A stretch of 64,000 nt of DNA, taken from positions 1 through 64,000 of the forward strand of contig VCMS01000152.1 of NCBI GenBank assembly GCA_022539475.1. Direction: 5' to 3'. The DNA comes from Gracilaria domingensis (taxonomy: Eukaryota > Rhodophyta > Florideophyceae > Gracilariales > Gracilariaceae). Both the position numbers and the translations under genes were made by a program. A model generated the notes under the pieces. It ran no database searches, had not been told where the DNA came from, and worked only from the letters and a program-made list of their open reading frames with translations. Numbering within the stretch: position 1 is the stretch's first letter; each line of letters begins with the position of its first letter. Positions 29,356 through 64,000 of the stretch are shown in pieces.

Positions 29356-29404
29356 AGGTTTGAGCGCGAGCGGGAGCGCAACGGCGAAGTACCGACATCG
29401 GGAG

Positions 29405-29410: not shown

Positions 29411-29558
29411 TATGACGTCCCCTCAGGGTTCTACCGACCACTTGGTTCTTCCACGCAAGCGGCTTTCGCCTCCGACCTCGGATATAACTCCTCCTTCTCC
29501 TCCGATACCTCGGCGTTCGCTACCAGTGCCTACTGCTCCTTCTTATCCTTTGACAGGA

Positions 29559-35823: not shown

Positions 35824-35889
35824 AAAGACTAACTGATTACTCTGGACGCAGAGGCTGGTTGGCATGAGACCGCATCCCGTCCGACATAT

Positions 35890-36240
35890 ATGTTTATTAG
35901 TAAACAATTTTCAAAGCTTGTAAGCAAGAAGAAAAGTACGGTATACCATATTGTTGTGAAGGCAAGTTCAAACCCGCCCAAGTCAGAGTCATCACTTGCA
36001 GAAGAAGATAAAGGCCTGGATATCCAAATAAAGAAGTTACTAAGTAAGTATGGGGATATATTTCCGAGGGAATTACCTCGAAATTTACCGCCTCACAGCG
36101 AAGTCGAAATGAGGATTAACTTAGAAGAAGGCGTAAAGCCTAAGTTAGGACCAATGTAAAAGTTATCTCGAGCAGAGCTTTCGGAAATGAAGACGCAAAT
36201 AGAAGAGCTTTTGGCTCACGGATTCATTCGTCCAAGTATT
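35890..36240 (+). pseudogene. pol: Element D RT N-terminal part
   Basis: FISKQFSKLVSKKKSTVYHI, LLSKYGDIFPRELPRNLPPH and KTQIEELLAHGFIRPSI, the usual sequence leading into Ty3 RT, with TAA at 36157-36159. It stops at the solo LTR. The reading continues in frame (SPWGSP) after 37240, which shows that the two parts were one gene. Confidence 0.85.
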
Positions 36241-37235
36241 TGTGGAGCAATGGCTTTCCGATATCGGATGCATCATGTCGCTCATAATGAGATGGTAACG
36301 ATGGCCGGTGACGTGGCGAAGTTATGAAAACTCCTTTTAATTTTGGGCAATTTTTGAAGGGTTTCAAAGGAGCCTTGATAGGTGAATCCTCTGTAAGAAG
36401 TGTATAGTAAGTAGAATAGTTGGCCACGTGTGGAGGTTGGCCTGCAGATAGTTGTGCCACGCCCGCTGGGAATTACCCCACCCCCTGACAATGGGTTGTC
36501 CACGTGTAGAACCCTCGGGAGGTGCGCACCGTAGATATAGTAGTAGTATATATGCTCGGGTGATCTCACCCTAGAGCCTCCAAGTAAATGGATAACTGAG
36601 TCGACACTCAAGTCGAATCCTGTTCAGGATCGGGCTATAGTAACTTGCTGCCTACGTAGGTCTACGACTCCATTAGGAGAGTAACCACGACTGGTATCGG
36701 CACTACTACCCCTCAGGGTCACTAAGGAAGCAATCGTCTCGCCATCTTTGAGTATTTGACTGTTTTTACCACTATGTCGGTTGTCTCTTGTTGTTGATTC
36801 TTGCTGTTGTCACTCTGTTGAGTCTCGTTGTTTACACTTGTTTACCTGGTTCAGGTATCGCTTCCGCCCCAGTATTGGGTTTAAATCTGGCGCCTTTGAG
36901 TGCGTCGCTCCGCTGTCGGACTTGTTCCCGCCGGTTGGCACGGTCTGTAGCTCCGCTCCGGTGTTTTCTATCGTGAGCTCTTCCCGGTTCATGCGGTCTC
37001 TTTTATTTCCCTTTGTTCAGTTTCGGATCACACTCCATCTCCAGATCTGCACCGTTCTTTGCATCCCACCTCTGTAGGTATAGCCAGTCACCGCCTCCGG
37101 TCTTACACCCGGCTTTTCATTCGACTCAAGTATGGACAGAGGGTTGTATCGCTGAGTCTATCCCTTATAGAGAGTAGGACCCGGACATTCTAGTGGAGAT
37201 TCCCCTTTGCGCTTATCGCAGGGTTTTGCTCTACA
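36241..37235 (+). repeat. Solo LTR (995 bp) inside element D RT
   Basis: TGTGGAGCAATGG to TTTTGCTCTACA, flanked by GTATT (36236-36240) and TTATT (37236-37240), a 5-bp duplication with one difference. Removing the LTR and one flank restores the RT reading frame. It is the same family as the element C LTR. Its internal open frames are not counted as genes. Confidence 0.9.
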
Positions 37236-37240
37236 TTATT

Positions 37241-38551
37241 AGTCCTTGGGGAAGTCCGGTATGTTTACAAAAAAGAAGGATGGTGGTCTAAGAATTTGTG
37301 TTGAGTACCGAGCGTTGAACAAGCAGACCATCAAGAATCAAGTACCGCTCCGAAGAAGTGATGAAGTATGCGATCAAAAAGGAGGAACTAAAGTATTCTA
37401 CGTTATAGATTTAAGATCTGGATACAACCAGATACAAATACGACAAGGTGAAATTGAAAAGACCGCATTCCGAGCAAAGTATGGACAGTTCGAGTATCTA
37501 GTAACGCCATTTGGTTTAACTGGAGCTCCCGGGTGTTTTCAGAAATACATGAATATGAAATTCAAAAAACATTTAGATAGTTTCATACTTGTCTACCTAG
37601 ATGATATTCTAATATACAGTGAGAATGAAGAAGAACATTTGAAACATGTAGAAGAAGCCTTCAAGATCCTAAGAGAAAATATGTTATATGGTAAGCTGTC
37701 AAAACGTGAGTTCATGAAAGACTCTATCGAATATCTCGGACACATCATCCCATCCGATGGTATTAAAGTTAACCAAGAGAAGACGAAAGCCATTCACAAA
37801 TGGGAAGTACCAAGCAACGTAACCCAGGTGCAAAGTTTCCTAGGTTTTTGCAATTACTACAGACGATTCGTCAGGGATTTCTCCCGAATCGCTGCACCAC
37901 TTACTGATCTTACGAAGAAAGATATTCCTTTTGAATGGACCGCAAAGGAGCAAAAGGCCTTTGAACACGTCAAAGAAGCTCTGACTAATACACCAGTCCT
38001 ACGCTGCGCTGATCCAAGTTTGTCATACATATAAAGTTACAGCTGCCGCGTCCCAAACAGGAATAGGTGCTGTGTTGGCACAAACCGACGAACAAGGTAG
38101 TCGATCAGTCGCTTACGCATCACGCAAATTATCAGCCACATAACAAGGTAACACTACACAAGAACGAGAAGTGCTGGCCATAATCTACGCACTGGAGACA
38201 TGGAGAACATACCTCTATGGAGTAATGTTCACCATATACACAGATCATAACCCACTGAAATATCTAGAAACACAGAAAAGTCTGGCAAGAAAACAAGCTA
38301 GATGGGTTGAGTTTATGCAAGAGTTTGAGTTTGAAATCACGCACATCAAGGGAAAACGTAATTACGTATCTGATGCACTGTCAAGGAAACACGCTGAAGT
38401 GCATAAGGTATCTTCTGACGTCATCAGAAATCTCCTTCATGTGGCCATCGTTAAAATACAAGACGATACACTGAAGACAGATACAGAAGATTACCATAAA
38501 GACGAGTTCTTTAAAGAAAGAATGCATAATTTGAAAGAACCTTTTGATTAG
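37241..38551 (+). pseudogene. pol: Element D RT core and RNase H
   Basis: RT with GLRICVEYRALNKQTIKNQ, YVIDLRSGYNQIQIRQ, VTPFGLTGAPGCFQKYMN, the active site FILVYLDDILIYS and KREFMKDSIEYLGHII. A frame change near 38030 leads to RNase H (SQTGIGAVLAQ, AYASRKLSAT, TDHNPLKYLET, RNYVSDALSRK). The first RNase H catalytic Asp (usual T-D-A-S) is replaced: the reading is V-T-A-A-A-S. The RNase H would therefore be inactive even without the stops at 38032 and about 38141. Confidence 0.88.
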
Positions 38552-47245: not shown

Positions 47246-47483
47246 CATGGCATTAGAGGGTCCTTTCAGTAGCTCATACAGTTTTGTAGATGCGAACGCA
47301 GTAGAATCGTGTGTTCCCTTAGAATGCGTAGCAGATACAAAGCAGAATTTGTAGTCTGTCTGTGCTGCCGCTTGAACGCACACAGCGAAGAACAATTTTT
47401 GATTGAAGTACTTTCTAGGATCCTTCACATCGATTCGTTTTGGCTTTGTAATCACGATTGCGATTACATCAGGTGCTGCGAGT
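47246..47483 (-). pseudogene. Harbinger-type DDE transposase fragment
   Basis: Minus-strand reading from 47483: AAPDVIAIVITKPKRID, DPRKYFNQKLFFAVCVQA, KFCFVSATHSKGTHDSTAFA and TKLYELL. This is the DDE_Tnp_4 pattern of PIF/Harbinger transposases, from the first catalytic Asp block through the conserved G-x-H-D-S. The part after this point is out of frame. The part before it was separated when element B inserted at 47484. The gene at 45526-47216 converges on it. Confidence 0.75.
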
Positions 47484-48054
47484 TGTGGTATAGCCGATCG
47501 GTGCGAGCTGTGAGTGGGGAGCCCTGCGTGGGCTCGACCCTGCGGAGGGATGAAACGCGTGACACCCAATAGGTCGGCAGCACCCGCCGTTGCCTATAGT
47601 GCACGGTGACCAAGTGGTAAGCACGCCTGCACTGGTGTGCGGCAGGCATCTATAACCCTCGAGGTCAGCAAAACTAATAGAGGACTACTAGACTTACCAA
47701 TTGGTGACTGTAGAACCGAACTGGTGTCGAATTAGCCTAGTTGGTGCTTGACTTTTCTATTCGGTGTGGGAGGTTGGCGTCTCGGGGGTTTAGTACACCC
47801 GAGCGCCTCTCCGGCTCTCATGGGCCAAGTGCCACGTGGGCCACCGGGAGGTGCATTTGTGGTGCACCACCCCGGCCACATATCTATACTATCTAGTAAA
47901 TATTAATTCCAAATTAATGAAAATAAACTAATTAGTCCTTGCCGAGCCTGCGCTTAGCGTCCCACGTGGTACAGTAGACACACGAGTCCGGGAGCCCATG
48001 ACATCACCACTTGGGCTTGGAGAGCCCCCGTTGAGCCGGCCGAGCTATACTAAA
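47484..48054 (-). repeat. 3' LTR of element B (571 bp)
   Basis: Plus-strand start TGTGGTATAGCCGATCGG. The inner end reads CTATACTAAA where the 5' LTR has CTATACCACA. It contains a tRNA-like segment (47605-47670) and copies of the CCAAGTGG/CCAATTGG motif. Confidence 0.93.
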
Positions 48055-49077
48055 GACCCCCCTCCTACCGACAGGCACGCCCCGTGGCTGTGGAGTCCTC
48101 ACGGGGTTTGCCGCCTCTTCACCAAACGGTCGTCGGTGCACATCGCCTGGCGCACGGCGCGTCTCGCGATGACGCGGAGATGGCACGTCGTTTGACGCGT
48201 TTCGCAGCATGCACTGCAACGCCGTTACTCGCGCTGCAGTGCCCCCTCGTGCGGTATGTGCGATCGTCCCTTACCTTCCTTGTGGCATTGGAACGCGAAA
48301 CCGCGAAACGCGACCATTCAGACTGATCTTGTCGTGCGCCCAGTACCACGTGGTTGTCTTCACCCCCCCCCCCCCACCCCCCCTGGGCTCCTACCGGAGG
48401 AGCCCCTTGTCTCACCTTCGCCTATTCGTCCTCTCCCTTGGCGGGTTAGTACCGGCTTACCATTTGGTCTCGTGCTCCCCGCCGGTGGGGCTCGCAGTTG
48501 TCAACCGATCGGCACGCCGCCCCCTCATGGTATCGCTCCTATCATTCGTTACCCGCTTGGTTCTCTTTCGTTCCTAGGGCTCCCTCTGGGGTGGTTGTGG
48601 CCTCTCTTATTCACGGAACCCACCTAATCGGCACATCAATCCGGTCCCTTCTCAGCGTGTGTCAGGTTGCCCGCGCGGCTTGTCCTTCCTCCGTGGCCCT
48701 TTAGGTCTCGTTTGGTCGTCCAATTGGTGGTGTTTTCGTTTTCTACTGTCTGTCTTACCTTCGCTCCGGTTTCTCCCTCGCGGTTGGTATTCTCCGTGGC
48801 ACGCTCCCGCTCAACCTCGCTCCTTTCGTACCTCATGGGTGATCGAACAGCTTCACCAACGGGGTGGTCAATGACGTTCGAATGCCATGAAAGCGGTGCT
48901 TAAGAGAGTGTCGCTCCCGCCCCTCCAACTGTGGTAGACCACGGGGGTGGGACGGCGCCGTTTCCATCGAGTTACCACGTGGTTGATTCTTCGCAGCTCT
49001 GTCTGCCGTCCCAGACCAGTACCCCGGTGTCCTTTCCATCGGGCGCTGAGACCCCCGTGGTGGCCAACCAATTGGTA
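48055..49077. other. Element B 3' non-coding region with polypurine tract
   Basis: Minus-strand AGGAGGGGGGTC (48055-48066) abuts the LTR and is the 3' polypurine tract. The rest has no domain-bearing frame. It holds a C13-A-C7 run at 48363-48383 and at least six TTGGT-type motifs. It is probably the leader of the aORF transcript. Confidence 0.6.
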
Positions 49078-49100
49078 ATGGAGGAGCCGCTCTACGACCC

Positions 49101-49106
49101 TATAAA
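49101..49106 (+). promoter_or_regulatory. Possible TATA box of the element B antisense gene
   Basis: TATAAA, 85 bp before the ATG at 49186. Unlike elements 1, 2 and C it is about 1 kb from the LTR. It falls inside an open frame that reaches back to ATG 49078, so its use is uncertain. Confidence 0.4.
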
Positions 49107-49185
49107 GGGATATTCCGCTTTTGAAGTTTCCCCCTCATCGGAGGCCAGCCGCTTGGTCCGCGAAACTGCTGTCGCCCGGTCGAGG

Positions 49186-51609
49186 ATGTCAGGCAAGATC
49201 CCTGGGGTAGCGCGCGGCCGTGGCGGTGGCATCTTCAAGCCTAACGCGCGGTCGAGCACACGCTCTCGTCAAGACCCTTACGGTCGCGGTGGGTATGATC
49301 CTTATGCGGCCGCCGCCGGTCCGAGCAAAGTCAACCCTCTTGCGGTCGCCGGTACGGTGGAAGCTCAAAAGCTGAATCCTCATGACCTCAGCAGGACGCA
49401 CGGGCAGCCGCATGCCCACTATGGTGCACGCTTTGCCGATATCTCTGCCCAGTTGGTCGCCCTGGGGAACTGGCCTTTCCACATCAGTTCCTCCTTCTGT
49501 CCCTTGCGGTTCCGCCACATGGGTCTCACGCAGTATACTACGATTGCCCGTTGGGATTGTCTCCGATTGGAAGCGGTGCCTATGGCGCCTCCTCCACCGC
49601 GCAAGGGCGAGAAGCATAGCCGGCTCGGTCGACAACAGTGTTTCCACGCGCGGCAGCGGCACACGAAGTTCCTATACTACATCCCCGTGGCCATACCATC
49701 GGATCTCCCCTTCATCCGCTGCGATGGGGAGGTCGACTAATCCCGCCGTTTGGCAGATATCCCTCACCGCTTGGACGAGCCTGCTACACACATCGAGGTC
49801 GATCTGGATTACGTCGCGTTTGAGCGCCCTTTAGATACCAATTATTGGACTGACCGTGGGAGGTGAGCGACCGATGCGATGGCCGAGAGCCGTGTTCGTC
49901 ACGGTAACAACAGTACGCGGACAATGTCCCTGTTCCACAACGTTGAGTATTGGTCACAGAGCGACCAGAACCGCCGGGCATGGTATATCAATCGACTTTC
50001 TTGGTGGGACCACTTTGAAGTATGTCAGTGGCTGGAAGTGCCGACCCCACCGGTACTTTCGTACTTTGGTAGTAGCATCTCCCTCGAGAGGAACAACACA
50101 TATGCCGTTTGGTCGGTGGTGCGCAGCGAGTGGGCCATTATGGTGGCTATCCTCGCCCTTCAGGCGTCCGTGGAAGGTGTGCCTTGGGACACGCGCTGCC
50201 CTGACACGTCTGTTGGGATCAGCGGGACTCAACCAGTTGGTCGCATCTTCAACATTCCCAACGATGTGATCTGCGACATTCGTGCCATGGGGCTCTCCAA
50301 GATCGTGGAGGGCACCAAGTATACGGCGCAGCAGTTGGACAGCTACCTCACGGCGGTAAGTAACCAAAGTTGGGGTCCTGAACAGGGTTGGGATGTCTAC
50401 GACCCGGAGGTTCATAGCATCGTGCCTCTCCAACAGCAGCATATGGCTGGCGAAGACCCATTTGGTAATGACGATACCGTGATGGTGGCTGCCGAGAACT
50501 ATGACTCCCCCGCGTTGCCTCCGTCGGCGCCCGTACAGGCCACTCCTCCGACCAGCGTGGCTGCGCCTGTCCCAAGTGGTCCAGCAGACCCTCAGGCAGC
50601 TGCTCATCCTCCCGGGCGGGCCGGCCAGGGGCCTCTTCGGGGTGGTTTCCAGTCGCTTCCGGTGAACCCGGTACCCCCTGGTGGTGATAGTGGCGCGATA
50701 CGAAGCGCCCTGGCTCGTCTCAACCACGCCTCGATGGTGCACTTCAACCGTCCTGGTCCAGATGACATCCTTACCGCTGTGGATACTCTCACCAACTTGC
50801 TACCGATGGTCGTTCACCACGAACGGCGCACTAGTGAGCTGCGGCAGTTCCGCGACTACTTTCAGCCCAATCTCTACCGTGAGGTGACAGCCTATGTTGG
50901 TCAGTTGAGCAACCTCGTGGAAGGCCACGCGCCGTTACATGGACCCCCTGTGGAAAGTTTCAACCCGTACAATCCTGCGTCGCAGCAGCCTGCGACCCCG
51001 TTGGTAGGCTTTAGTGGCCTTGGTACGTATCAACCGCCTGGTGGACCTCCTGGTTTCAATCCTTCGGCACCCTTCCATACACCGCTTGGTCCTCATAACG
51101 TTCGTCTTCCTCCAGCAAGTACTGGGGCGGGAGCACCAAGTGGTTTCCAAACTGGTTTCCGTTCGGCTCCGCTTCCGTCGTCGTCCGGCGCTCCGATGAC
51201 ACCTGCTGGTCCTGAACCTTCGGGAGTTGGAGCGCTTCTTGGTCTGGCCCCTGGTGCAGGGCCGTCCAGCGTTCTTGCTCCTAAGCCGGACTCTAGTGGT
51301 ATTCCTCCGACTAGCTTGCCGCCTTCCTTCCATCCACCCACCGGTCCTGCAAACACCTTGCCGGTAGTTAGCAGCGGTAACCCCGCGGGGCCTGCTGCTT
51401 CTGCTCCATTACCAAGTGGTGGTGCGCCATCGAGCGCGGCTAGCGGCGGGGGCGAAGCTCCGCCGGACCTATGTCGGTGTCCTCTGGTCGTGGGGGTTCC
51501 GTTTCGTCTCGCGGGACCTCCCGTGGACGTGGTCACGGTCGTGGAACCAGTCGTGGACGCGGACGTGGCCGTGGTTCTGCCAAGGCCTTCTAAGTTACCT
51601 CGTGGTTAG
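49186..51609 (+). pseudogene. Antisense accessory protein (aORF) of element B
   Basis: One frame of about 808 codons from ATG 49186 (ATG 49078 upstream in frame) with stops TAA 49738-49740 and TGA 49864-49866. The N-terminus is RG-rich (GVARGRGGGIFKPN). The middle has SRSDQ-like and SYFGSSISLERNNTYAVWSV then SEWAIMVAILAL, matching the SYIGSR and EWAARVA blocks of the other aORFs. The long C-terminal half is Pro/Gly/Ser-rich. At the end a 1-nt shift near 51467 would replace the annotated tail by GRGGSVSSRGTSRGRGHGRG and GRGRGRG, an RGG-type RNA-binding tail ending at about 51593. Both ends thus look fit for nucleic-acid binding. Function is otherwise unknown. Confidence 0.7.
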
Positions 51610-51804
51610 CGCTTGTGAGTCCGTCTTTGACTAGTAAAGTGTCTTGCCTTGTGCGTTATGATCTGGTTCCATTTTCCTGTTAGGTTAGTTATCATTTCAT
51701 GTGACGTTTGGCGTTCAACGGCTTAGACAACCCCCCCCTCCTTAGCGACGCGTACGACGCGAAGCAGTACCAGTTGGTGGGGGCGTTCGCCCCTGTTTGC
51801 GCCA
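51610..51804. other. Convergent spacer with an internal polypurine tract
   Basis: Between aORF and pol. It contains minus-strand CTAAGGAGGGGGGGG (51731-51745) and an ACCAGTTGGT motif at 51768. No gene is seen. Confidence 0.45.
51731..51743 (-). promoter_or_regulatory. Internal polypurine tract of element B
   Basis: Minus-strand AAGGAGGGGGGGG just downstream of the chromodomain stop. It is like the tracts inside the linker of elements 1, 2 and C but not within coding sequence. Confidence 0.5.
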
Positions 51805-53519
51805 CTATCTGATAATGAAGTTGTTAGTGATCTGACCAGGTAGTTCCATAGAGTCGTACTCTGGCGACCATCCGTACCATCTTACCCTGTAGCGGATACC
51901 CTTTGTGGTGTGTTCGTGACCTACAATAGTGTCAATAGCACACTCCTGGGTCTCCTCTTGAGGTTGTGACTTTTCCGTTTGGTCGTGGGGTGCGTGGCTC
52001 CCCCTGGGTGGTGTGACCTGTTGGTCTCGCCGTGGCGCGATCTCCTGTGCCTATTGGGTCGTGGGGTCAGCCGTTACGGCCCTGATGGACGGTTGACCGC
52101 TCGGTTGACTCGTCAGAGGAGGGGCTGTGGGAGACGTTTCTTCCCTTTGCCCTTCCTTCTGAGTTGGCTCACCTATTGGTTGTGTATGCGGTGTCGTCGT
52201 TTGTGCGGCCTTGGCAATTCTGTCGATGGAGACGGTGTTCTCTAAGCCATCCATTATGACCGTAGCGGTATGCTCATCGGAGCGAATCACCTTATATGGT
52301 CCCGTCGACTTGGGTAGTAGTTTGGAGTTGATATCCTTCTCAATGCGGATGTCTTCTTCCATTTCCGCTGGCGTCGGTCGTTTACCTTTTGGTGGTACGT
52401 CGATGAAAACCATGTCTCCTGCTACCACTTCGGCTACTCTGCTCACCGTTCGGTCATAATCTGCTTTATACCGATCTTAGGCTGCTGTCATTTTGAGTTT
52501 GGCAGCAGCCAAAGCGGCGCGTAACTTCCGGAGTGTGTTTCGCTTGACCTTCGCAGGTGTGAGTGTCCCTGCCGCTTTCGAGCGGTCGGGTCCGGGCTGG
52601 ACGATAATGCCATGTAGTGTTCGTGAAAGTACCGGGTCAAACGGGGTCGTTTGGGTGACCCTGTGGACCTGGAGGTTGTACGCATATGTCAATGGTTGGA
52701 CGTATTCTGACCATGTGGTTTGATGCTCTTCGACGTAGTGCCGTAGGCGTGCCACTAGGGTCTTATTGAACCGTTCCACTTGGCCGTTTGTTTGCAGATG
52801 ATAGGCCGTGGTACAGTAGTGCTTGACCCCCAGCATGGTGCAAACCGCCTCAAAGAACTTAGAAGCTAGGTTCGAACCATTATCGGTGAGTAGGTACATA
52901 GGAGCACCGTATGGGTAGACCCAGTTCTCCAAGAAGGCTGTCGCCAGTGTCGTTGCCGTTTGGTTCTTCAGGGTTATGGCCATGGTGAGCTTCGTGAACC
53001 TATCGATTATGACTACTACAAAGCGAAAACCCTCCGAGGTCTTTGGCAGGGGCCCCAGTATGTCGATCGCGACGAATTCCAGGGGCCCCGCCGTCGGGAA
53101 TAGCTTCAGGTATTTCCCTTGCTTCCTCACACCACCTCGGGTCTTTATGCACGAATTGCATTGAGCCACATAGGTATATACGTCGTTTGCCATGTGCGGC
53201 CAGTAGAATTGCCTCCGAAGGGTGTAGTACAACCGCGTGGCTCCAGGGTGTCCCGAAAGCCGTGGGTTGTGTGACAAATACAACACCCTTTGTCTTAGTG
53301 ACTCAGGTACGACCTTCTGGAGAGCTCCGTCTAAAGATGAGCGTCTGATGAGGTACCAATTGTGGTCGACATCGAACTGAGAATCCTTCTTTCCTACTAG
53401 GTCAGCGAGCGTTTTGCACAGCCTATCAGCCGATTGTTCGCGTAGGAATTCCTCACTGGTGATTGGAGCGTGTTCTCCTTCTTCCACACCCAGAGAGGTG
53501 AATTGACGTCCGGATGATA
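51805..53519 (-). pseudogene. pol: Element B integrase with GPY module and chromodomain
   Basis: One minus-strand frame, the same as RT, from about 53519 to TAG 51805-51807, with stops TAA 52477-52479 and TAG 52051-52053 (both compatible with CAA or CAG changed by C-to-T). Zinc module SHNPRLSGHPG with CNSCIKTRG. Catalytic D, D, E in VAIDILGPL, LLTDNGSNL and NGQVERFNK. GPY module LPKSTGPYKVIRS. Pro/Thr-rich tail ending TADP as in the related elements. Last comes a chromodomain with ECAIDTIVGHEHTTKG and YRVRWYGWSPEYDS. This copy shows that the chromodomain is translated as the C-terminus of pol. Confidence 0.9.
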
Positions 53520-53960
53520 TCCCTCAGATAACCCATATTCGAATTACGAAACCTGAAGATGTTAATTGGATCTCTTTAAGATGTCCATATGATATACGTA
53601 AATGATGCTCAAATGATGCATGAAGTATATCCAAATAATAACCGCCTGATAGGCATATGATGTACGAAGAGATATCCATTGGATTTTGTGATGTCCAAAT
53701 GATGCACGGCAGATTTCCGGACATCCATAGGACATATCTTCATGCATCATATGAAGATCTTCGGAATGGTTTCTGTATATCCAAAGGACATGTGAAGGGC
53801 ATCAAGTTGGCGCATCCAACGGGGTACCACGGCATATCATTCGGATGTCCTAGATGCGCAGAAGATATCCAAATGATGTTCCATAGATGCCCCAATTTTT
53901 CATCCGATAGACATCCATTGCGCATCACTTTATCTCACAGGGACAGGGAGGAGAGTCTCC
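53520..53960. repeat. AT-rich insertion made of GATATCCAAATGATG-like repeats
   Basis: A 440-bp segment between RNase H and integrase whose composition differs sharply from its host. Short related words recur: GATGTCCAAATGATG (about 53690), GATATCCAAATGATG (about 53864), GATGTCCATATGATAT (about 53579), and TATATCC-AAATAAT and TATATCC-AAAGGAC variants. They occur in both directions with no fixed spacing. The open frames through it are repeat by-products. The ends could not be placed exactly and no target duplication was found. Confidence 0.7.
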
Positions 53961-53961
53961 A

Positions 53962-55491
53962 CTACCACTTGGTACGTACTGTCACATGCCAGTATCCCTT
54001 CAGAACTTCGTTGACCTCGTGGTTCGCTGATTCTACTGTAAAACATGGAATGTCGTCGTCCACTGGGTCAGTGTCCATTCCTTCGGTATTCAACCCGGAC
54101 ATTGCATCCGCCACTCGGTGCTTGACCCCGGGGCGGTACTGCACATCGTAGTCAAACTCCGAGAGTCTTAGGCGCCATCGGTCCAGACGACCTGATGCGT
54201 CCGCCAAACCTAATATCCACCTCAAGGAGTCATGATCCGTTCGAAGCGTGAAGCGCACACCATATAGATAGGGACGTAGCATGAGCATACTCCAAACAAC
54301 CGATAGGCATTCTTTCTCCGTTACGGTATAGTTCTGCTCTGCTTGGTTCAGAGCTCTACTCCAGTACCCAATTGGTGCGAGCTTGCCATCCTCCTGTTCC
54401 TGCATGAGGCAGCAACGTATTTGGGCGTCCGACGCGTCTGTGACCAGCGTATACGGGAGTCCCGTTTTGGGCAGTGCCAGTACCGGTGGGGAGAGAAGAG
54501 CTGCCTTCAATGTGTGGAAAGCCTCTACCTCGTCTTCTTCCAAGTGGTCGAAGTGTGTGGGCTGCCCTTTCTGCAACCTCCGGTTCAGGGCGGCCGCTAT
54601 CTTTGCAAAACCCTTAATGAACCGCCGATAGACGTTACATAGACCTATAAAGGATCGTATGTCCGTCTGCGATGTAGGGAGCTGCGCTTCCTGTACCGCT
54701 CGGATATTCCGTTTGGTCACTTCGAGTTTCCCGGGGCTAATTGTATGCCCTAGGTACTCTACCTCTTGGTTGGAGAACATACACTTTCGTAGTTTGAGGG
54801 TCACGCCCGCCTCCTGTAGCAACCGCAATACCACTCGGACGTGTGAGAAGTGTTCCTCAATGGATCGCGAGTAGATGACTACATCATCTATATATACCAA
54901 TGCAGTTGTCCACTTCACCTTAGACAGTATGATGTCTAATGCTCCTTGGAACGTAGCTGGGGCGTTTCGCAAACCGAACGGCATGCGTAAGAAGTGATAC
55001 AGGCCTGCGTGGCATGTAAACGCGGTCTTATCACGATCGCCCTCTGGTACTTCGATCTGCCTATAGCCGCAGTTCGCGTCCAGTGTGGTGAGTATGTTCG
55101 CATCTCCTAGGGAGTCGATGCATTCATCCATCCTCGGGATGGGATATGAGTCCCTTACCGTTACGGCGTTGAGTTTTCTGTAGTCAATACAAAACCTCAT
55201 GCGGGTCTCTCCTCGTTTTTGGACTAGCACTACAGGGCTAGCCCATTCCGAGTTTGCCGGCTCTATAACCCCCTCGCGGAGCATCCGCTCCACCTCCTCC
55301 AGCTCTACCTCACGGGCCTTATGTCCGGCGCGGTATGGCTGTTGGTGGATGGGACGGGAGTCCGGTCTGACGTCAATCCTATGCTGGGTGGCCTTAATGG
55401 CTCCCAGTTTACCAGACCACATGGTACTGAATGGCTCCAAGAGTCCGAGGATCCGGGCTCTGAGCTCTTCCCCTTCAAGTCCTATACTCAC
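53962..55491 (-). pseudogene. pol: Element B reverse transcriptase and RNase H
   Basis: 509 codons, open. RT: HQQPYRAGHKAREVELEEVE, SEWASPVVLVQKRGETRMRF, YPIPRMDECIDSLG, TLDANCGYRQIEVPEGDRDK, RMPFGLRNAPATFQGALDI, active site ALVYIDDVVIYS (YIDD in place of YLDD/YVDD), and VTLKLRKCMF. RNase H: VTDASDAQIRCCLMQEQ, YWSRALNQAEQNYTVTEKE and RTDHDSLRWI, with all catalytic acids kept. It overlaps the protease frame by 4 bp (GTGA) and lies in the -1 frame, so it is made by frameshifting. It runs into the AT-rich insertion at 53961, which cuts it from integrase. Confidence 0.92.
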
Positions 55492-56741
55492 TTCCGTTTT
55501 CCATTGGTCACTGGGTCGAGCTCCAGTTTCGGGTCTTCTCGCTCAGCTAGTCGCTGCACCATATGGTCTGTCTGCGGCGAATTGGCACTGCCTCCCACCT
55601 CCTTAGCGTCCACGGCCTCGTGAGACCATTGTGGTTTGATCGTAAAGATCGTGCGGGGAGCCGGTAGGGCCAGACCAATTACTGTGTGCTTTGGCAACTT
55701 AACCGGGCGGTTGCTGAAGTTACTGAGGTAGACCTGAAACGGTTTTGTCGGTATGTTGTCGACTATACCATTTGCCATTAAGGTCATATGTCGTTCGGCC
55801 AACCGTGAGTGGTTCTGAATAGATAACAAACCAGGTTGTTGGCATGTCACCTTCACGACCAAGTGGTTCATAGGCGGTATCGTTACCGATTTTGCCAGTC
55901 GCACCTTGTTAGAGAGTGTATTTTCCGGAACGGGTTGGTGGCGAATGCTTTTCTCCGTGGGAGAGGCACCCTTGTGGTTACCCACGATGGCGATACGGGG
56001 ACCATTGTGGAACAGCACCGTCTTAGAGCGTGGGAAAATTGCCCTGACGTGCTGGTCTATAAAGGTCGTCCCGAGGATACAGTCTGTTGCCAGTTGGTTA
56101 ACGACTATGAAACGGACTCGGAACTTCATGGTGTCAATCAATACCATTATGGTAAGCGCGCCCATAACGGTTAATGGTTTGTTATTGGCGTCAACCAGCG
56201 GGTTAGTTAATGTACATGGCTGAAGCGTAGTAAGTTGTCTGTTAGTTAATAGTTTGGAATTCACCAGATTAGGTCCTGCCCCGGTGTCCAGGACAGCTAC
56301 GCATGGTACCAAGTGGTTAGAAGAAAACCCGAGGGTGACGTTTACCTTATAGTTATTACGCTTGAGGAACCATATGGGTTCGGTGCCATCCATGAGGCTC
56401 TCCTCCCCTGTAACCAATGGGTAATTGTCCATACTTGCACCACTTGGTTCTGGAAGGCCTTCCACATTCGGACAGTTGGGGGAGGCCTCTATCCCAACTG
56501 TTCGGCGTTTTCCGCCTGCGGGGCGGGCTCCGCTTGGTCCTGCTCCATAATTATGTGTACCTGATGAGGTGTGGCTGCATTGGGGCGCGCATTTGCGTGT
56601 CCCGTGCCTGCGCTCCGCGCTGTAGGCCCAAATATATCCTGGTGGTTCTGCTGGCGAGCAGTCAGGAGAGCGTTCCTGTTCTGCGGAGCCACACTCGGGC
56701 ACGCTGTTGCCAAGTGGTGAGGCGATAAACAGAACCAGCAT
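55488..56741 (-). CDS. pro: Element B aspartic protease region
   Basis: 417 codons in the -1 frame relative to gag, overlapping it by 253 bp and followed by RT in the next -1 frame. The active site VAVLDTGAGPNLV (DTG) and the second conserved block ILGTTFIDQHV are intact. After these come about 150 residues of spacer (TIPPMNHLVVKVTCQQPG and so on) leading to RT. The first 100 residues mirror the Gag end in another frame and need not be translated. Retroviral-type proteases act as dimers to cut Gag and Pol. Confidence 0.85.
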   Translation of the reverse strand: MLVLFIASPLGNSVPECGSAEQERSPDCSPAEPPGYIWAYSAERRHGTRKCAPQCSHTSSGTHNYGAGPSGARPAGGKRRTVGIEASPNCPNVEGLPEPSGASMDNYPLVTGEESLMDGTEPIWFLKRNNYKVNVTLGFSSNHLVPCVAVLDTGAGPNLVNSKLLTNRQLTTLQPCTLTNPLVDANNKPLTVMGALTIMVLIDTMKFRVRFIVVNQLATDCILGTTFIDQHVRAIFPRSKTVLFHNGPRIAIVGNHKGASPTEKSIRHQPVPENTLSNKVRLAKSVTIPPMNHLVVKVTCQQPGLLSIQNHSRLAERHMTLMANGIVDNIPTKPFQVYLSNFSNRPVKLPKHTVIGLALPAPRTIFTIKPQWSHEAVDAKEVGGSANSPQTDHMVQRLAEREDPKLELDPVTNGKRK

Positions 56742-58757
56742 AGGAGATTACCGGTTGTGGGGTCCTTCATCGCGAGCGACGGCGCGCGTGATGGGGGACG
56801 ACCTCCAGCCGGTGCTCCACTCCGTTGCTGCGGGGGTGGTCCTCTATCAACATATTGGTTGAATGGCACCTCTAGGACTGGACTGACCGGTATGGATACC
56901 TGTGATGGTGGAGCTGAGGTTTGCCTCGAGGGTGGCTCGCTGGATAGCGAGCTGGACCAGGAGGTGTTATTGTGCGATCGAGTTGTCGGTTGTGCATGCA
57001 CCAAGTGGACTGGGTGACCCTGGGAGGCGTATTGTGTGGATGCCTCATCCGTACTGGTCTCCTCTTCCTCTACGTCAAACACTGACCGCCTGGGTTTTCG
57101 TTTCTCCTTCGATGGTTTGCCAAGTGGTGCGGAGTCTTTTCTGGCGCCTGACCGGACGGTGTCGCCTAGCTCCTGTGCATGTCGGGCTAGTGCGTTGTAG
57201 TCGACCGTGCGGTTGGTGGCTAGGTAGTTACGAACCTGTGATCGGATAGATTTCGCCACGTTGTCGACGTACATCGATTTCAACCTCTTGGTAGTAAAGA
57301 CACTTCCACAGCGGGAGGCTAATGCCCACAGGGAGCGAGCGAATTCCAATTCGGTCTGTCCTGCGCGCTGGCGGTACGCAAGTACCTCTGCGTACGTCTC
57401 TTGAATCACCTCATCGGTCGTGTAGGTTTCCAGTAGAAAGTTAAGCACCTGTGGGTATGTCGTCAACATTTCCGTTTGGTCCTCGTCCACCGCCATGGTG
57501 TTCCCTTGGAGGCGGCTATGGAGCAACGCTCCAGCTTGAACAGTTAGGTAGAATTGAAACAACCACATGGCTGCTGCCTCTGAAAACCCATTCTGGTCAC
57601 AAGCGATCTTGAACCTTTGAAAGAAATCAATGAGCGCAATAGGGTCATCCCCGCTAAAGCGAGTCTCACCCAGTTGGAAACGAAGCTTCTTATGATGCTT
57701 CGTTATCTTCTGAGCTACCTCTTTGGTATAATCAACCTGTCTGTTCTCCAATCTATAGGTACGATAGTCAACCGCTTTGGTGAATAAATCGTTAAGCGGT
57801 GTAAGCACCTCTAGGTCAGTCTCTTCGTCGGAAGTTGAGTCCGAATCATTGTACCTTTCGGTCTTACCCTTGCGGGCATTCTTTCATTTCTTCTGGCGAG
57901 AGTCCTTCCTCTTGCGTCGTGAATCTTTACGGTCGTCGTATCCTGACGAATCCGAATCGGTGTCTGAGGACGAAGAGTTCGAGTCCGACCGGCGACTCTT
58001 TCTCTTTCCCCTTTTGGTTTTCTTCTTCTTACCATTTGGTTTACGTCGACGCTCGTCTCCTGAGCTTGACGAATCTCCATCAGGGTCTCCACCACTTGGT
58101 CCTGTCGGAGCTACACCAGTGGGTTGGGGGAGGTATACGTACCTCGGGCCCTCCAGGCCAGGAGGCTCTGCCCCTTTCCCCATGCGGTCGATAAATCCTT
58201 CACCAATCGGTTGTGTAGGAAGGTTAGGATGGATAATACCAGGTGGTTTGGTGGCTTCTACTGCCGGCCGGGGGGCTTGCTTCATGAGCGCGGCCTGGGC
58301 CACCATCTCAGGTTGAAGCTTAGCCCCCCTGCTGCTGCAGAGCCAGCATAACCAATCGGTCGATGTGTACTCGTATCTCGTTCTCTAGGTACTGTAACAC
58401 CACCACGGGTACCTTGTCGAGGACCTCCTGGGAGGCTCGATCAACTACCACTCGGGTGACCTCGTCCAGGTTCAGTCGCGGCCCGACTGGCACCTCTATT
58501 TGGTCTACCACTGGGGTTGTTACAGGAGCGGGCTCCTCCATTGCGGAGCCTGCTCCTTCGTTCACTTGGTCAGCCCGGGGAAGGGTCGAGGGGCCCCCAG
58601 CCTCTCGGTCTACCTTCTTCCCCCTCGGTGGGCGTTCCTTCCGAATCAGGTCCTTCGGGTAATCCAACACCGGATAGGACACTGAAACCCGTACGGGGTG
58701 GCCACTTGGTGGAGCGCTCGGCGCCCTTTTCGGGTGACGCACGCCCCGTTTCTCCAT
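56489..58757 (-). pseudogene. gag: Element B Gag with zinc knuckle
   Basis: About 755 codons from ATG 58757. A 1-nt shift in a G6 run (58324-58329) and TGA 57884-57886 interrupt it. Parts: Pro-rich N-terminus, a Leu-rich helix (VVVLQYLENEIRVHIDRLV), a Lys/Arg then Ser/Asp-rich tract (about 57890-58090), the capsid-like helical core (FSGDDPIALIDFFQRFKIAC to IRSQVRNYLATNRTVDYNAL), a basic and Ser/Pro-rich segment, and one CCHC zinc knuckle CWFCLSPHHLATAC that binds RNA. The element E Gag is homologous through the core. It is the first gene after the primer binding site. Confidence 0.9.
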
Positions 58758-58870
58758 TTAGGTAATTGGTGTCGGGGCAAATTGCTTCGGCAACGGGAAC
58801 CAAACCACTGGGGTATCTCGTGACTTCCAAATCCTTCCTTTCCAAAACCACTTGGTCTTCACAAATTCTA

Positions 58871-58883
58871 GGTCAGGAGACCA
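58871..58883 (-). promoter_or_regulatory. Primer binding site of element B
   Basis: Minus strand TGGTCTCCTGACC, starting 5 nt after the 5' LTR. It begins with TGG, complementary to a tRNA CCA end. It differs at one base from the site of element E. The tRNA was not identified. Confidence 0.65.
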
Positions 58884-58888
58884 AAATA

Positions 58889-59897
58889 TGTGGTATAACC
58901 GATCGGTGCGAGCTGTGAGGGGAAATCACTGCGTGGGCTCAACCCTGCGGAGGGATGAAACGCGTGACACCCAATAGGTCGGCAGCACCCGCGGTTGCCT
59001 ATAGTGCACGGTGACCAAGTGGTGAATACGCCTGCACTGGTGTGCGGCAGGCACCTATAACCCTCGAGGACAGCAAAACTAATAGAGGACTACTAGACTT
59101 ACCAATTGGTGACTGTAGAACCGAACTGGTGTCTAATTAGCCTAGTTGGTGCTTGATGTGGTGCAATTCCACGAGTGGGCAAACAAGAGCCGCGTCGCAG
59201 AAAGCGAACCTACAGGGTGTTCGAGCCCCGCTCCCTATAGGGGTAGGGTCGGTGGTAGAACCCTCCGGTAGGGCTGACACAGGTCAGGCGTAAATCCGGG
59301 CAGCCCCGTCCTGGGCGTGCAGCCGGAGGTTGGGGTGGGTAGAATCGGGGTAGAATCCGGGTAGTTCCGGCGAGCCACAGCGAGTGGAGATACCCAAACC
59401 AACGGTGTTGGGCAAAACGGGCACCCAACGAGCCGCGCAACGGTGCACTGACTCGCGAGATCGAGAAATATTCGCGGACAACGTGGGTCAAACCTGTATA
59501 ACAGGGCAGAGCGATAGGAGCCGTATGACGGAAATAATAACAATGAAAAACACCTCGTTGCATCCCCACAGAGGGCGTTTTGCTCTACACTTGACTTTAC
59601 CATTCTGTGTGGGAGGTTGGCGTCTCGGAGGTTTAGTACACCCGAGCGCCTCTTCGGCTCCCACGGGCCTAGTGCCACGTAAGCCACCTGGAGATGCATT
59701 TGTGGTGCACCACCCCAACCACATATCTATAGTACCTAGTAAATATTAATTCCAAATTAATGAAAATAAACTAATTAGTCCTTGCCAAGCCTGCGCTTAG
59801 CGTCCCACGTGGTACAGTAGACACACGAGTCCGGGAGCACGTGACATCACCACTTGGGCTTGGAGAGCCCCCGTTGAGCCAGCCGAGCTATACCACA
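58889..59897 (-). repeat. 5' LTR of element B (571 bp plus nested insert)
   Basis: Plus-strand parts 58889-59156 and 59595-59897 add up to 571 bp, the same as the 3' LTR. It starts TGTGGTATAACCG and ends CTATACCACA, followed by the CGAGT duplication. It is interrupted by a family A solo LTR with its CTTGA duplication. Confidence 0.93.
59157..59589 (+). repeat. Solo LTR, family A short form (433 bp), nested in element B
   Basis: TGTGGTGCAATTCC to TTTTGCTCTACA between perfect CTTGA copies (59152-59156 and 59590-59594). It matches both ends of the 855-bp copy at 45885 but lacks about 420 internal bases. Family A was thus active after element B. Confidence 0.93.
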
Positions 59898-59902
59898 CGA
59901 GT

Positions 59903-60216
59903 ATACCAAATATCGGAGATCGGCGTAGCTAACAGAACATATTGGAATTTCCAGGAACGCAGAAGAAGATTTATTACAGCCACACGTGCGGCGGCATGGC
60001 AGGCGAGAGAACGACGCCGGCGGATACAAGAGCTCTGCTCTGCTCTCTGCCTGGCAGTCGGATGCTCGGCGGGCCAGCCGTCGCGGCGCACGCGCACGCT
60101 GACCTTCTCTGCGTCCCTGGAGCTTCCCTGGGCCCGTTTGAGTCAACTAACGCGTCGTGGCCCAAGCTGATCCCCACACGCTCCTCGACCCTCCTTCGTT
60201 TCCTTGGAGACAAGCC
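59903..60216. other. Flank of element B, nothing recognised
   Basis: Before element B inserted, this was contiguous with 47478. The N-terminal part of the Harbinger transposase would be expected here on the minus strand. No convincing frame was found, so the transposase was already broken or the start is too eroded. Confidence 0.4.
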
Positions 60217-60537
60217 ATGGACACGCTCAGTAGCAGAGATTTGTCTCCGTCTGTAGCACTCATGCTGCAGATCATGCACGAAAAACCCCAACGCAATCAT
60301 AAACACGTTCGCAAAGCAATCAACGACGCAAGTCGTGCTCAAGATAACCAAGACAGCAATCCGCCTCTGTTTGAGGACATTTTAACCCACATTGAAACAC
60401 AGACGCTTAGCGAAAGCACCGCTCTGCTTCCCAGTCCGACTCTTCTGCAGCACCCTAACGCATGCGGCGCTCTAGCGCAAATCAACACAGCACCCTTTGC
60501 ATCACCAGCACTGACGAACCTCCACTTCCTCGTTCCT
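60217..60537 (+). pseudogene. Unknown gene, 3' end cut by element E
   Basis: ATG 60217 gives 107 residues (MDTLSSRDLSPSVALMLQIM then KHVRKAINDASRAQDNQD and so on), Leu/Ser/Asn-rich and mostly helical, up to the start of the element E LTR at 60538. The apparent stop at 60559-60561 lies in the LTR. No family is recognised. A divergent arrangement with the transposase remnant to the left leaves open that it is the accessory gene of a Harbinger element. Confidence 0.4.
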
Positions 60538-61538
60538 CGTGGAGCAAACACGATCCGGTAATCGGCGCAAGATGCATCTCATAATGAGCACTAACCCCCT
60601 TGGGTGACGTGGCGCACACTATGAATGGTACCCCCATTTTTTGGTTAATTTTTGGAAGAAGTTTCAGGAACCTCTGCGGGTAGAAGTGGGAATTGGCTCT
60701 CGGACACGAGCGGTTGCTGGACTTCGTAGTCGACGTGTATTGTAGATACTCAAGGTGTGCCCGCCGGGGTGTGCATAGGAACCCTGACACTGGGTTATAC
60801 ACGTGTTCGAACCTCGAGAGATACACACCACAACTGTAGTTAGTAGTAGCTTGATTCTTGGTAGATTACTATATAGGCTCGAGCCATCTCGCCCTGGAGC
60901 CCACCAAGTAAACTCACCTGAGTCGCGTCCTATCTCCCAGGACCGGGCTATAGATATTGTTGCCTACGTAGGTTCATTACTCCTCGCGGAGGGTAACCAC
61001 GACTGGTCTCGACATATCTACCCCTCAGGGTCCTTAAGGAAGCCTACGCTTGCACCTACTGTTGGTTTCTTGCTATTGTTCCGATATCGGCTAACGTCGA
61101 GCGTCTTGGCCAAGGAGTGGCGTCGCTCTGGACACAGTCGCCTGGTTTAGGTACCGCTTCCGCCCCCGTACGGGTATTCTTTGGCCCCACTTTGGTACAT
61201 TCTGTTGGCACCACTGCGTGGTCGTCGCGCCGCTGTCGGCCCTGTTTCCGCCGGTTGGCGCGGGCCGTAGCTTCGCTTCGTGGTCGGTTTCTGTGTACAC
61301 CGTCCACACGGTTGAGTGTTCGTGATCCCATCTCTTGGGCTCTATCTCGTCACCCACTTGGGCTCCGCTCCTTTCTCGGTTTCACCTCTGTAGGTATAGC
61401 CAGTCACCGTCTCTGGTCTTACACCCGGCTTGCTTCTCGCTTGAGCACGGACAGAGGGCTGTGTCGCTGAGACTGCCCATATAGGAAGCAGGACTCGGAC
61501 ATCCTGTGGATCATCCCCATTTCTGGGTTTGCTCTACA
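60538..61538 (+). repeat. 5' LTR of element E (about 1001 bp)
   Basis: Starts CGTGGAGCAAACACG (the first base changed from the usual T) and ends GTTTGCTCTACA. It is aligned with the element C family through GACGTGGCG, CCTCAGGGTCCTTAAGGA and the CCGCCGGTTGGC region. Open frames inside are LTR sequence. Confidence 0.85.
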
Positions 61539-61540
61539 TC

Positions 61541-61553
61541 TGGTCTCCCGACC
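61541..61553 (+). promoter_or_regulatory. Primer binding site of element E
   Basis: TGGTCTCCCGACC, 2 nt after the LTR and followed by TAG as in element B. The shared sequence shows that both families use the same tRNA, not identified here. Confidence 0.65.
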
Positions 61554-61749
61554 TAGAAAGGTGTGAAGTCAGGAGGTACTCTAACGAGTTTAGAAGCTTG
61601 ATCGATTGGATTGCCCCCTCGGGAGGTTGTATTCTAGTGCCCTCACCCCTTGGGTTCACTGGAAACAGTTTCTCGATTTACCCCGTGTATCGGTGATCTG
61701 GTGGACTTTGGTAACCGTTCTTACTGGTTGTTGATCGGTAATCTGCAGT

Positions 61750-63854
61750 ATGCCCATATCAACTCGGACCTCCAGGGCTCGCTCCGTTAACTCGGCTAGC
61801 TCCGTTCCTACGGCTGCTTCCCGCGCACAGGCGCCTGCCCCGGAGGGAGATCCTAATCCAGAACTCACCCGATCCCGAGAAGCAACCCCATTGGGTGAAG
61901 TACCCCAAGAGGCTGTTGTCCCCATGACCCCCCGAGCGGCCACCGCCACCGGTAGTGGAGACACCGTCTTCAGCTCCTTTGGGAGCACAGACCCCGCTGG
62001 CGATACGAAGTCTAAGAGCCAGGATGGACAATGCTGACATTGCCCATACGGACCTCAAAGAGGGCGTGGAGGATCTTAGACAGACTTTGGAACACGCCCA
62101 AGTTAGGGAAGTCTCAGGAGATATTCGCCTTCTGAGGCAGGAAATGAATTTCTTCTTAGAAAGTTTTGGGACCCCGCAGGTTTTTGTTGACGACTAACGA
62201 CAAACGGTTCAAGAATCTCGCATCGAGCGGCAACGATTACAAGCCAGGTTGGACAATCTGGAAGCAATTATCCGAATGGATGAAGATTTAGGAGCCGCGG
62301 AACGGAACAAATCCGAATCGAAAGCCTCGGTACGTCGTTCCGATAAGCGGAGTCGCCGGAAGCCTAAGAAGGAGTCGCGCCATTTCTCGGATTCATCTGA
62401 TTCTGACTCCGATAGTAGCTCGGATAGCTCGTCATCCTCGTCATCTTCCGATTCCTCGGCTAGTGACTATCATAAGAGTTCCCGTTCTACTCGGTCCAAG
62501 GCTACTCATTCCACTGTTGGAGCTATTCGCACCCGCAAAAAGGGAAAGAGCCACCCTGGTTTGAAGGAGATCAAACCAACGAATCCGTTGTATCGGAAAT
62601 TGCTTTCGTACCGTTGTTATCGGTTGCAGAACACTGCGTTGTCAAGGACCTCTAGAGGCACTGGAAAAGTTAGGGACTACATCCGTAGACTCGGCGTTAC
62701 ACTCAACAAGAAAGAGTTTACAGGAGAGGACCCAATCATGGTGCTAGATTTCCTCGCGAGGTGTGTTTAAGAAGCGGACATCCTCGGTATGAGTGAGGGA
62801 CAGGCGTTTATAACCCTCCCGTATTTCTGGATTGGCAGAAGATCAGTTCAAATCCGCACGCGGATCCTCGACAGCCCCTGATGAGGGTGGAGTCACTTGT
62901 TGGCCCGAAGCGGTTCATTACCTTCTCAGGTCATACGCCACTGGTGACGCCATCCAAAAGGCTACCACAGCCCTGAGGGAGACGAAGCAACGACCGGATG
63001 AAGACGAGACGGCTTATTCAACGCGCCTGAACAAGGCCTTTCACCGTTGCGATAATGTACATCTTTCTCAGGAGAGATGTTCCATATTTGTTGATGGATT
63101 GGATTCCGCAATTAGGGCACTTGTCGCCCGACATAGGGAAGAGAAGAGGCGAGTTTCCTACCTAGAGCTCATACAGTATGCCCAGGCAGAAGGAGACACA
63201 CTCCGTGCACGGAGCTCTTCTCGATCTAAATCCCGAAGGGTCCTCTTCGCCGAGAAATCGGATTCTTCACTATCCCGTAGCCGTGGGAATCACTCCAGTA
63301 TTGGCCATGATAAGGTGAACCTCGTAGGTACTGAACTTGAGTCGACTGGCACATCGGACCTTCCCTCGACATCGGCACCGTCTTCGGACACTGACCCGGC
63401 GTTATACGCTCAGGGAAGCCGAGTTCCGGCAACTCCGATACCCTTTTCGGGTCGCAACATGAGGTTCAATCGCCCTGGATGGAGGGATACTGCTCCGCAA
63501 GGTCGTATGGACTTTCGCCCGCACGACAACCCGACCCAAGTGATCTGTTACGAGGGTTACCAATTTGGTCATATCTCAACACAGTGCACGTTCCCTCAGC
63601 GGGAGAGGTCAAAAATTATCGCTCAGTATGAGTTGCTCTCACCAGAGAATCAGGCTCGTGTTCCGAGAACATCCTATGAAGTGGCCAAGTTTGCATTGAA
63701 CCTTTATCAGGGAAATGGAGGAACCAACGTTGCTGTACTTAATCATACATCGGCCCAACCTTCGGTGGAACGACAAATACCCGCGAACGGGAATCAAATC
63801 GATGCCCAGGACGGGAATCGCCAGCAACAGGCGGTACCTGCTCCGAAAAACTAA
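61750..63854 (+). pseudogene. gag: Element E Gag, decayed
   Basis: ATG 61750 (MPISTRTSRARS). A frame change near 61955-62035, TAA 62195-62197, TAA 62768-62770 and another shift near 62825 break it. Parts in order: Ser/Ala/Pro-rich N-terminus, a coiled-coil helix (DLRQTLEHAQVREVSGDIRL), a basic run then a Ser/Asp tract (62386-62460), the helical core (GVTLNKKEFTGEDPIMVLDF to IRALVARHREEKRRVSY) homologous to element B Gag, and a knuckle-like CYEGYQFGHISTQC. In that knuckle the second Cys of CCHC is Gly, so metal binding is probably lost. The stop is at 63852-63854. The following 146 bp presumably begin the protease region. Confidence 0.85.
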
Positions 63855-64000
63855 TCTTGGGAGTCTCCCCGGTGGGAGGGGCCTCTTCTGAGCCGAATGT
63901 GAAGACGCCCGAAGCGCCTTCGCTTCACTCCCCGGTCGTTAGAATCCTTACGAGGACGATGGCTGCCACAGACGTGGATTCAAAACACTGTAGTGTTTTA

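Follow-up and report, generated by a model that had tools for sequence, protein, structure and literature searches.

Family-specific palindromic motifs dispersed along Ty3/gypsy retrotransposons of Gracilaria domingensis, putative sites of a dimeric DNA-binding protein

We analyzed a 64-kb window (the whole stretch of DNA presented above, on contig C152) of the red alga Gracilaria domingensis, with genome scans covering 77.9 Mb in 680 contigs, and observe that element B, a Ty3/gypsy long terminal repeat (LTR) retrotransposon at 47484-59897 with gag-pol on the minus strand (LTR repeats, Pfam), carries a short palindromic motif along its length. In B and its relatives, such sites greatly exceed what chance or codon usage would give and end where the element does; they are conserved from copy to copy, with turnover, and change from family to family. 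Our reading, to which we give a probability of about 0.6 on the basis of sequence comparison, is that the motifs are dispersed DNA sites of a putative family-specific dimeric reader, selected along whole Ty3/gypsy copies. That they are duplex-DNA sites for a dimer and under selection we consider likely, while the product of an antisense open reading frame (aORF) between pol and the 3' LTR is the leading candidate for the binder, a tentative assignment at rather less than even odds.

The palindromic motif of element B

An earlier note on this window had counted 19 exact copies of an 8-bp word over both strands, plus five of a further word, and the same numbers are recovered here, with 11 CCAAGTGG and, on the other strand, 8 CCACTTGG, as well as 5 CCAATTGG. 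Three exact sites appear once in each LTR and share their ancestry, so one LTR was counted, which leaves 17 + 4 = 21 sites against a mean of 0.67 and a maximum of 4 in 1,000 dinucleotide shuffles, in agreement with the note's chance expectation of less than one. When all 8-mers are counted, as the note had proposed, CCAAGTGG tops those over-represented in B (19 vs 0.94 under an order-2 Markov model, p 1e-18). Two figures of the note needed revision: the rest of the window holds three exact copies (29438, 61354 and 31308) rather than about one, and the near-match types that it named total 17 in B rather than about 25 (8-mers on both strands: CCGTTTGG/CCAAACGG 7, CCGCTTGG/CCAAGCGG 5 and CCAGTTGG/CCAACTGG 5).

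In a free search of all 3+3-base dyads, ACC-N3-TGG ranks first in B (97 observed vs 14.6 expected) and ACC-N4-GGT second (57 vs 7.4), with 31 and 14, respectively, in the other 51.5 kb of the window. Alignment of the 97 sites gives the 10-bp palindrome ACCANNTGGT, with flanks that are not conserved. Genome-wide, ACCAAGTGGT occurs 1688 times and a reversed control word 139 times. That these counts arose by chance, from base composition or codon usage, or from ancestral repeats has negligible probability. LTR duplication does explain 3 of the 24 exact sites; however, motif copies have no common flanks, and there are 69 ACCNNNTGG-type places (one LTR, each place once), where 1,000 dinucleotide shuffles average 8.2 and never exceed 18.

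Shuffles that keep the encoded protein give the same picture, and an artefact of codon usage or composition is ruled out by the two kinds of control together. In the intact pol (1552 codons) of the B-type copy C63, ACC-N3-TGG occurs 43 times against 12.1 in 500 synonymous-codon shuffles (sd 3.1, maximum 21) and against 16.3 (maximum 24) in a stricter version in which the adjacent base is preserved as well. Codon shuffling of the aORF piece in B likewise leaves an excess (15 vs 2.8), while the excess in the reverse transcriptase (RT) frame of B is weaker (10 vs 3.3; maximum 9, or 10 with the stricter shuffle).

With respect to conservation between copies, which the note had made a condition of its claim, B was compared with C91, C63 and C66, whose RT proteins are 95% identical and whose off-site DNA is 90-91% identical. 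Sites are intact in 67/75 (C91), 82/95 (C63) and 76/86 (C66) cases, and control trinucleotide pairs in 166/266, 219/351 and 208/320, that is, 86-89% of sites and 62-65% of controls. Per base, identity is 96.4-97.9% within sites, and these trinucleotides reach 92.3-93.5% where they lie outside sites. Some of the remaining site loss may reflect decay of B after its insertion. The three B-type copies hold 94, 106 and 91 ACC-N3-TGG and are as dense in them as B.

The sites of B are dispersed over coding and noncoding parts alike, and the spread that the note described (LTRs, gag, pol, antisense ORF and spacers) is what we find. Their density by segment is 5.6-18.7 per kb, barring 53488-53961 and an insert in the right LTR (none each), whereas the flanks reach 0.5-0.7; the sites stop at the element ends. 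No departure from random spacing is seen among the sites of B (coefficient of variation 0.82; random 0.78-1.22).

The assignment of B to Ty3/gypsy follows from an LTR pair (93-95% alike), the duplication CGAGT on both sides and the order RVT_1, RT_RNaseH, rve on the minus strand, with the protease at a sub-cut-off match only. Because its LTRs are 93-95% alike, B is read as an old copy. Its aORF sits between pol and the 3' LTR and is broken into open pieces, chiefly the two listed here with the other features:

47484..59897, minus strand: element B, complete, ends TGTGGTAT...ATACCACA (LTRs; Pfam RT, RNase H and integrase; target site duplication)
47479..47483, unstranded: target site duplication CGAGT, left, 5 bp
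59898..59902, unstranded: target site duplication CGAGT, right, 5 bp
47484..48046, minus strand: 3' LTR, downstream of pol (aligned part; real end a few bases farther right)
58889..59897, minus strand: 5' LTR, upstream of gag, interrupted by a 433-bp insert at 59157-59589
56489..57808, minus strand: gag-like ORF (named from position; no Pfam gag match)
55488..56741, minus strand: protease-region ORF (gag-asp_proteas, E 0.0089, under the Pfam cut-off)
53962..55491, minus strand: reverse transcriptase/RNase H (Pfam)
52477..53487, minus strand: integrase, H2C2 zinc finger and rve core (Pfam)
48931..49740, plus strand: aORF, first open piece in B (ORF list, comparison with the aORF family)
49879..51609, plus strand: aORF, second open piece, 576 aa, opening with the core conserved in the aORF family

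The 24 exact sites are unstranded; 8-bp entries come from the exact count, and 10-bp entries from the exact count and the dyad search:

47609..47618: ACCAAGTGGT, LTR, partner 59014..59023
47696..47705: ACCAATTGGT, LTR, partner 59101..59110
48007..48014: CCACTTGG, LTR, partner 59850..59857
48720..48727: CCAATTGG
49067..49076: ACCAATTGGT
50572..50579: CCAAGTGG, inside aORF
51135..51144: ACCAAGTGGT, inside aORF
51411..51420: ACCAAGTGGT, inside aORF
52776..52783: CCACTTGG, inside integrase
53964..53973: ACCACTTGGT, inside pol
54368..54375: CCAATTGG, inside RT
54540..54547: CCAAGTGG, inside RT
55858..55867: ACCAAGTGGT
56308..56317: ACCAAGTGGT
56439..56448: ACCACTTGGT
56710..56717: CCAAGTGG
57001..57008: CCAAGTGG, inside gag
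57120..57127: CCAAGTGG, inside gag
58091..58100: ACCACTTGGT, upstream of gag
58702..58709: CCACTTGG
58847..58856: ACCACTTGGT
59014..59023: ACCAAGTGGT, LTR, partner 47609..47618
59101..59110: ACCAATTGGT, LTR, partner 47696..47705
59850..59857: CCACTTGG, LTR, partner 48007..48014

The 433-bp insert is kin to 45885-46300 just outside B (two pieces, 86%), and it holds 0 ACC-N3-TGG sites, which is consistent with insertion into the LTR at a later time. Other recurrent words were also seen: the nonpalindromic ATC-N8-ATC (17 vs 1.8 in the pol half of B, window 52001-56000; 21 vs 3.4 over the whole of B), ACTAATTAG with 4 occurrences in B, and AGACTAATTA / CTAATTAGTC with 4 in each of the B-type copies C63 and C91 (L033/L034, L031/L032; expected ~0.01).

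Other families, other palindromes

Seven more distant copies were compared, five with 70-73% and two with 61% RT identity to B. The top dyad is ACC-N5-GGT in all five of the former (43-63 observed vs 5-9 expected), which also hold 22-50 ACC-N4-GGT, and CCG-N2-CGG in both of the latter (49 vs ~10), which have only 8 and 12 ACC-N3-TGG. Codon shuffling again leaves an excess in pol (C508, CCG-N2-CGG, 21 vs 5.7). ACC-N4-GGT reaches 4.4-6.3 per kb in B, C63, C91, C38 and C28, and 0-0.3 per kb in four flank sets (~9 kb together); for ACC-N5-GGT the densities are 2.7-6.3 per kb inside elements and 0-1.1 in flanks. The pol of the 70-73% group ends by eye in an apparent chromodomain (L038:5000-5255 and relatives) that is not obvious in B. 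An RT alignment scan of viral contigs confirmed a relative in none.

A third pattern marks a variable-arm group, to which the window contributes four gypsy elements besides B and the rest of the genome four loci (L051-L054). Limits of the window elements are those of 2-kb bins:

4001..12000, plus strand: related gypsy element, 4-bp-arm palindromes; aORF at 9305-11389, minus strand
16001..24000, minus strand: related gypsy element, 4-bp-arm palindromes; aORF on the plus strand
28001..38000, minus strand: related gypsy element, 4-bp-arm palindromes; aORF on the plus strand
60001..64000, plus strand: start of a related gypsy element, same palindromes; RT at contig position 65342, runs past the window

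These elements carry inverted repeats of 11-13 bp, each made of two 4-bp arms around a 3-5-bp spacer; the arms differ among sites and pair within a site. Repeats with spacer 4 number 109 vs ~40 in L051, 118 vs ~41 in L052 and 141 vs 41 in L054, and codon shuffles of pol leave 70 vs 18.2 (L053) and 57 vs 20.9 (L052). The excess lies in 4- to 5-bp stems and mostly fades at 6-bp arms (L054 keeps a remainder of 7/2, 6/2 and 8/2), with a pairing correlation chiefly 3-6 bases from the center (2-5 for odd centers). Between 107 and 153 of the 256 possible arms are in use. At spacer 4, CC-left arms are enriched 5-10x and GG-left arms 0.2-2.4x in seven sets. Of 479 CC-N6-GG sites in five pooled sets, 254 have complementary bases after CC and before GG, where about a quarter is expected, and all four pair types occur among the matches.

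Variable-arm sites are kept above controls in 8/8 comparisons between copies (0.18-0.69 vs 0.11-0.55). Arm usage also shifts between relatives, with AC-arms at 21% of 103 L052-only sites and 4% of 79 L051-only sites, and TC- and CC-arms at 7% each of the former and 24% each of the latter. Palindromes in which both arms have changed number 12 over eight overlapping comparisons, which is suggestive only. Along the window in 2-kb bins, variable-arm palindromes occupy 4-12, 16-24, 28-38 and 60-64 kb and ACC-N3-TGG occupies 47.5-60 kb, with the stretches between near background. Gypsy pol pieces at 37243-39553, unlike the others by eye, are mostly without palindrome excess and form a natural control; two ~372-bp tandem units (3884-4594, 93-96% alike) lie beside a gypsy element.

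The sites might instead be stem-loops of element RNA or of single-stranded cDNA, such as packaging or reverse-transcription signals, which we judge quite unlikely. The covarying arms, the short spacers and the excess in 4- to 5-bp stems are hairpin-like, and G-U pairs run slightly ahead in B (stem 4, spacer 4: G-U 98/79 vs A-C 121/108) and in C38 (stem 4, spacer 3: 129/98 vs 107/93). However, among near-perfect stems of seven variable-arm sets, G-U (488/431, 1.13x) exceeds neither A-C (560/457, 1.22x) nor the other mismatches (2016/1779, 1.13x). Spacer composition is roughly strand symmetric there (no formal test), GG...CC arms do not share the enrichment of CC...GG arms, the signal is mostly gone at 6-bp stems, and the B palindrome would form merely a 3-bp stem with a tetraloop. 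RNA hairpins are thus unsupported in the variable-arm group, whose sites we read as duplex DNA because a G-U preference is absent, and the result is mixed in B and C38.

A mutational process, for example template switching by RT, could also create and perfect short palindromes. Palindromy does extend beyond fixed motifs, in that arms that one half of an element does not use are enriched 1.4-2.6x in its other half (six sets; B 1.1x, C63 1.4x). Against this stand the strong CC-left preference, the family-specific arms, the fixed motifs of B and C508 and the conservation of sites between copies, and we hold such a process to be improbable as the source of the sites.

The putative reader and the antisense ORF

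We propose that a symmetric dimer of an element-made, family-specific protein would read two half-sites in duplex DNA (for B, ACC(A)...(T)GGT) and would thereby recognize members of its own family at any point of their sequence. Sites would be gained and then kept along the element. The candidate reader is the aORF product, which would be supplied in trans to copies without an aORF, and its binding may keep the element expressible or label it for the element's own machinery, in the manner of VANC on VANDAL elements. That anti-silencing, rather than another use, is the purpose of the sites is suggested by this analogy and is doubtful. A broader version, in which the copies of the whole clade are marked end to end by duplex palindromes, a large branch reading largely the match of two 4-bp arms within ~12 bp in a family-tuned manner rather than a set sequence and the kin of B forming fixed-palindrome branches, appears possible at best; if true, the self-recognition code would keep its grammar while its letters change.

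Among possible readers, the aORF product stands first for two reasons. It is conserved from one element family to another as well as in Gracilariopsis chorda, and it is encoded at the same place and in the same direction as plant ORFs with products regarded as nuclear (PMC7264820). The protein has a conserved core and low-complexity ends, with RG-rich C termini in the C63 and C508 types. A protein search from a single aORF sequence gave no match among 8000 scored candidates. A profile search with the alignment against a large protein set found six relatives, namely five archive entries and the hypothetical protein BWQ96_10156 (P0122) of the florideophyte red alga Gracilariopsis chorda, which is 39% identical to the L052 aORF over 87% of the latter and points to a red algal host. 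A 45-residue stretch resembles UHRF1 (E 0.005 and 0.028, both matches to UHRF1, with no Pfam support), in a region that we take to be the tandem Tudor domain, and we treat this as a lead only. The L052 aORF has at least 67 genome copies that are 94-100% identical, for which reason this family was probably amplified recently.

Among 17 motif-bearing copies read beyond pol (C267, where the contig ends before the aORF region, and the 60-64 kb element were excluded), an aORF is recognizable in 10: B, C63, C66, C508, C41, L052, L054 and three window elements. We lowered our estimate for the aORF product slightly, from one already a little under even, because the other seven lack it and need a trans-acting factor or a different binder. 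C91, in which most of the aORF is gone while the LTRs are 99% alike and the motif sites are retained, is as expected with a factor acting in trans.

Several observations weigh against the proposed reader. The aORF is not recognizable in C91, C38, C62, C232, C28, L051 and L053 (in L047, the C28 copy, the aORF match falls outside the element), its protein is mostly neutral to acidic, and 11 alignment members matched no Pfam family at E up to 10. The aORF and motif types go together; pol types do likewise, and the reader is not singled out. Within the aORF itself the excess is weak in C63 (7 vs 2.1, maximum 7, z 3.3) and in C508 (CCG-N2-CGG, 4 vs 2.2, z 1.4). The G-U test in B is mixed over stem 4 and spacers 3-5 (G-U 91, 98 and 77 vs 79; A-C 100, 121 and 104 vs 108). 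There is a lesser rise in palindromes at 46-48 kb (42 vs 24.9), and the 36.5-47.4 kb stretch taken as a control has palindrome signal at one spacing (19/33), probably because its start is part of the neighboring element. Finally, one dimer of fixed specificity does not predict arms that vary yet match; several coexisting specificities, a palimpsest of older ones or reading of symmetry itself may explain them.

A host DNA-binding protein could read the sites instead, either as an exploited activator or as a family of host recognizers. Motifs do persist in the seven copies without a recognizable aORF, and several paralogous host proteins could account for mixed arms within one element; however, different palindromes in different families of a single genome are more simply explained by a reader that travels inside the element, and we find a host reader unlikely. 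We consider it very unlikely that integrase, Gag or any element protein besides the aORF product is the binder. The LTR ends of B (ATACCACA/TGTGGTAT) contain the half-site ACCA, but LTR ends and motifs change separately: C38 and C28, with the ACC motif, end in TGTCGTA/TACGACA, and C508 and C41, with CCG-N2-CGG, end in TGTGATA/TACGACA. Integrase reading its own LTR ends is rejected on this ground, and Gag would be expected to read RNA.

Comparison with known systems

Under the reading as sites of a family-specific dimer, the dozens of predicted sites per element are a ready substrate for a binding test, with at least three distinct motif classes in one genome as built-in specificity controls, and the matching yet variable arms of the third group pose a puzzle for DNA recognition itself. 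Our literature search, limited and at title and abstract level, found no report of element-wide palindromic motifs in LTR retrotransposons. The DNA transposons Ac/Ds and Spm have many short subterminal transposase sites near their ends, which serve excision. The B clade resembles them in the many copies of a short site, with a protein reader that is putative here, and differs in that its sites are spread from end to end, in LTRs and genes alike.

The plant LTR retrotransposons Grande, RIRE2 and Retand carry an extra antisense ORF downstream of pol, before the 3' LTR; the Grande product is described as nuclear and that of Retand as predicted to bind DNA (PMC7264820, PMC11963269), and the function of antisense ORFs in LTR retrotransposons is given as not known (PMC7264820). 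The aORF of the B clade has the same position and orientation, antisense to gag-pol and between pol and the 3' LTR in the 10 of 17 copies. At the level of Pfam, a domain common to it and the plant ORFs was not found, and the portions of the plant reports drawn on here do not mention an element-wide palindromic motif (PMC7264820, PMC11963269).

The nearest working parallel, with clear differences, is the VANDAL/VANC system of Arabidopsis, in which VANC is an anti-silencing protein that binds the motif and strips silencing marks. VANDALs are MULE-type DNA transposons and not LTR elements, unlike B. Related VANDALs are reported, in the sections concerned, to build up different short motifs that are recognized by their own diverging VANC, whose effect can spread along the whole element; the motif, YAGTATTAY, lies in noncoding tandem repeats (PMC5735166, PMC10398659). 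B and its kin have likewise accumulated a family-specific short motif, but theirs is palindromic, dispersed and present also within coding frames, and the aORF product is not recognizable as VANC in a comparison limited to Pfam. The earlier note's suggestion of a VANC-like binder stands in part: an element-specific, conserved motif that changes between families fits a co-evolving element-encoded binder, whereas binding of DNA, or of this motif, by the aORF product is a proposal, and a VANC-like role for it is an analogy only. Should the aORF product prove to be the reader, transposon self-recognition by sequence would reach beyond VANDALs to retrotransposons, and probably to red algae.

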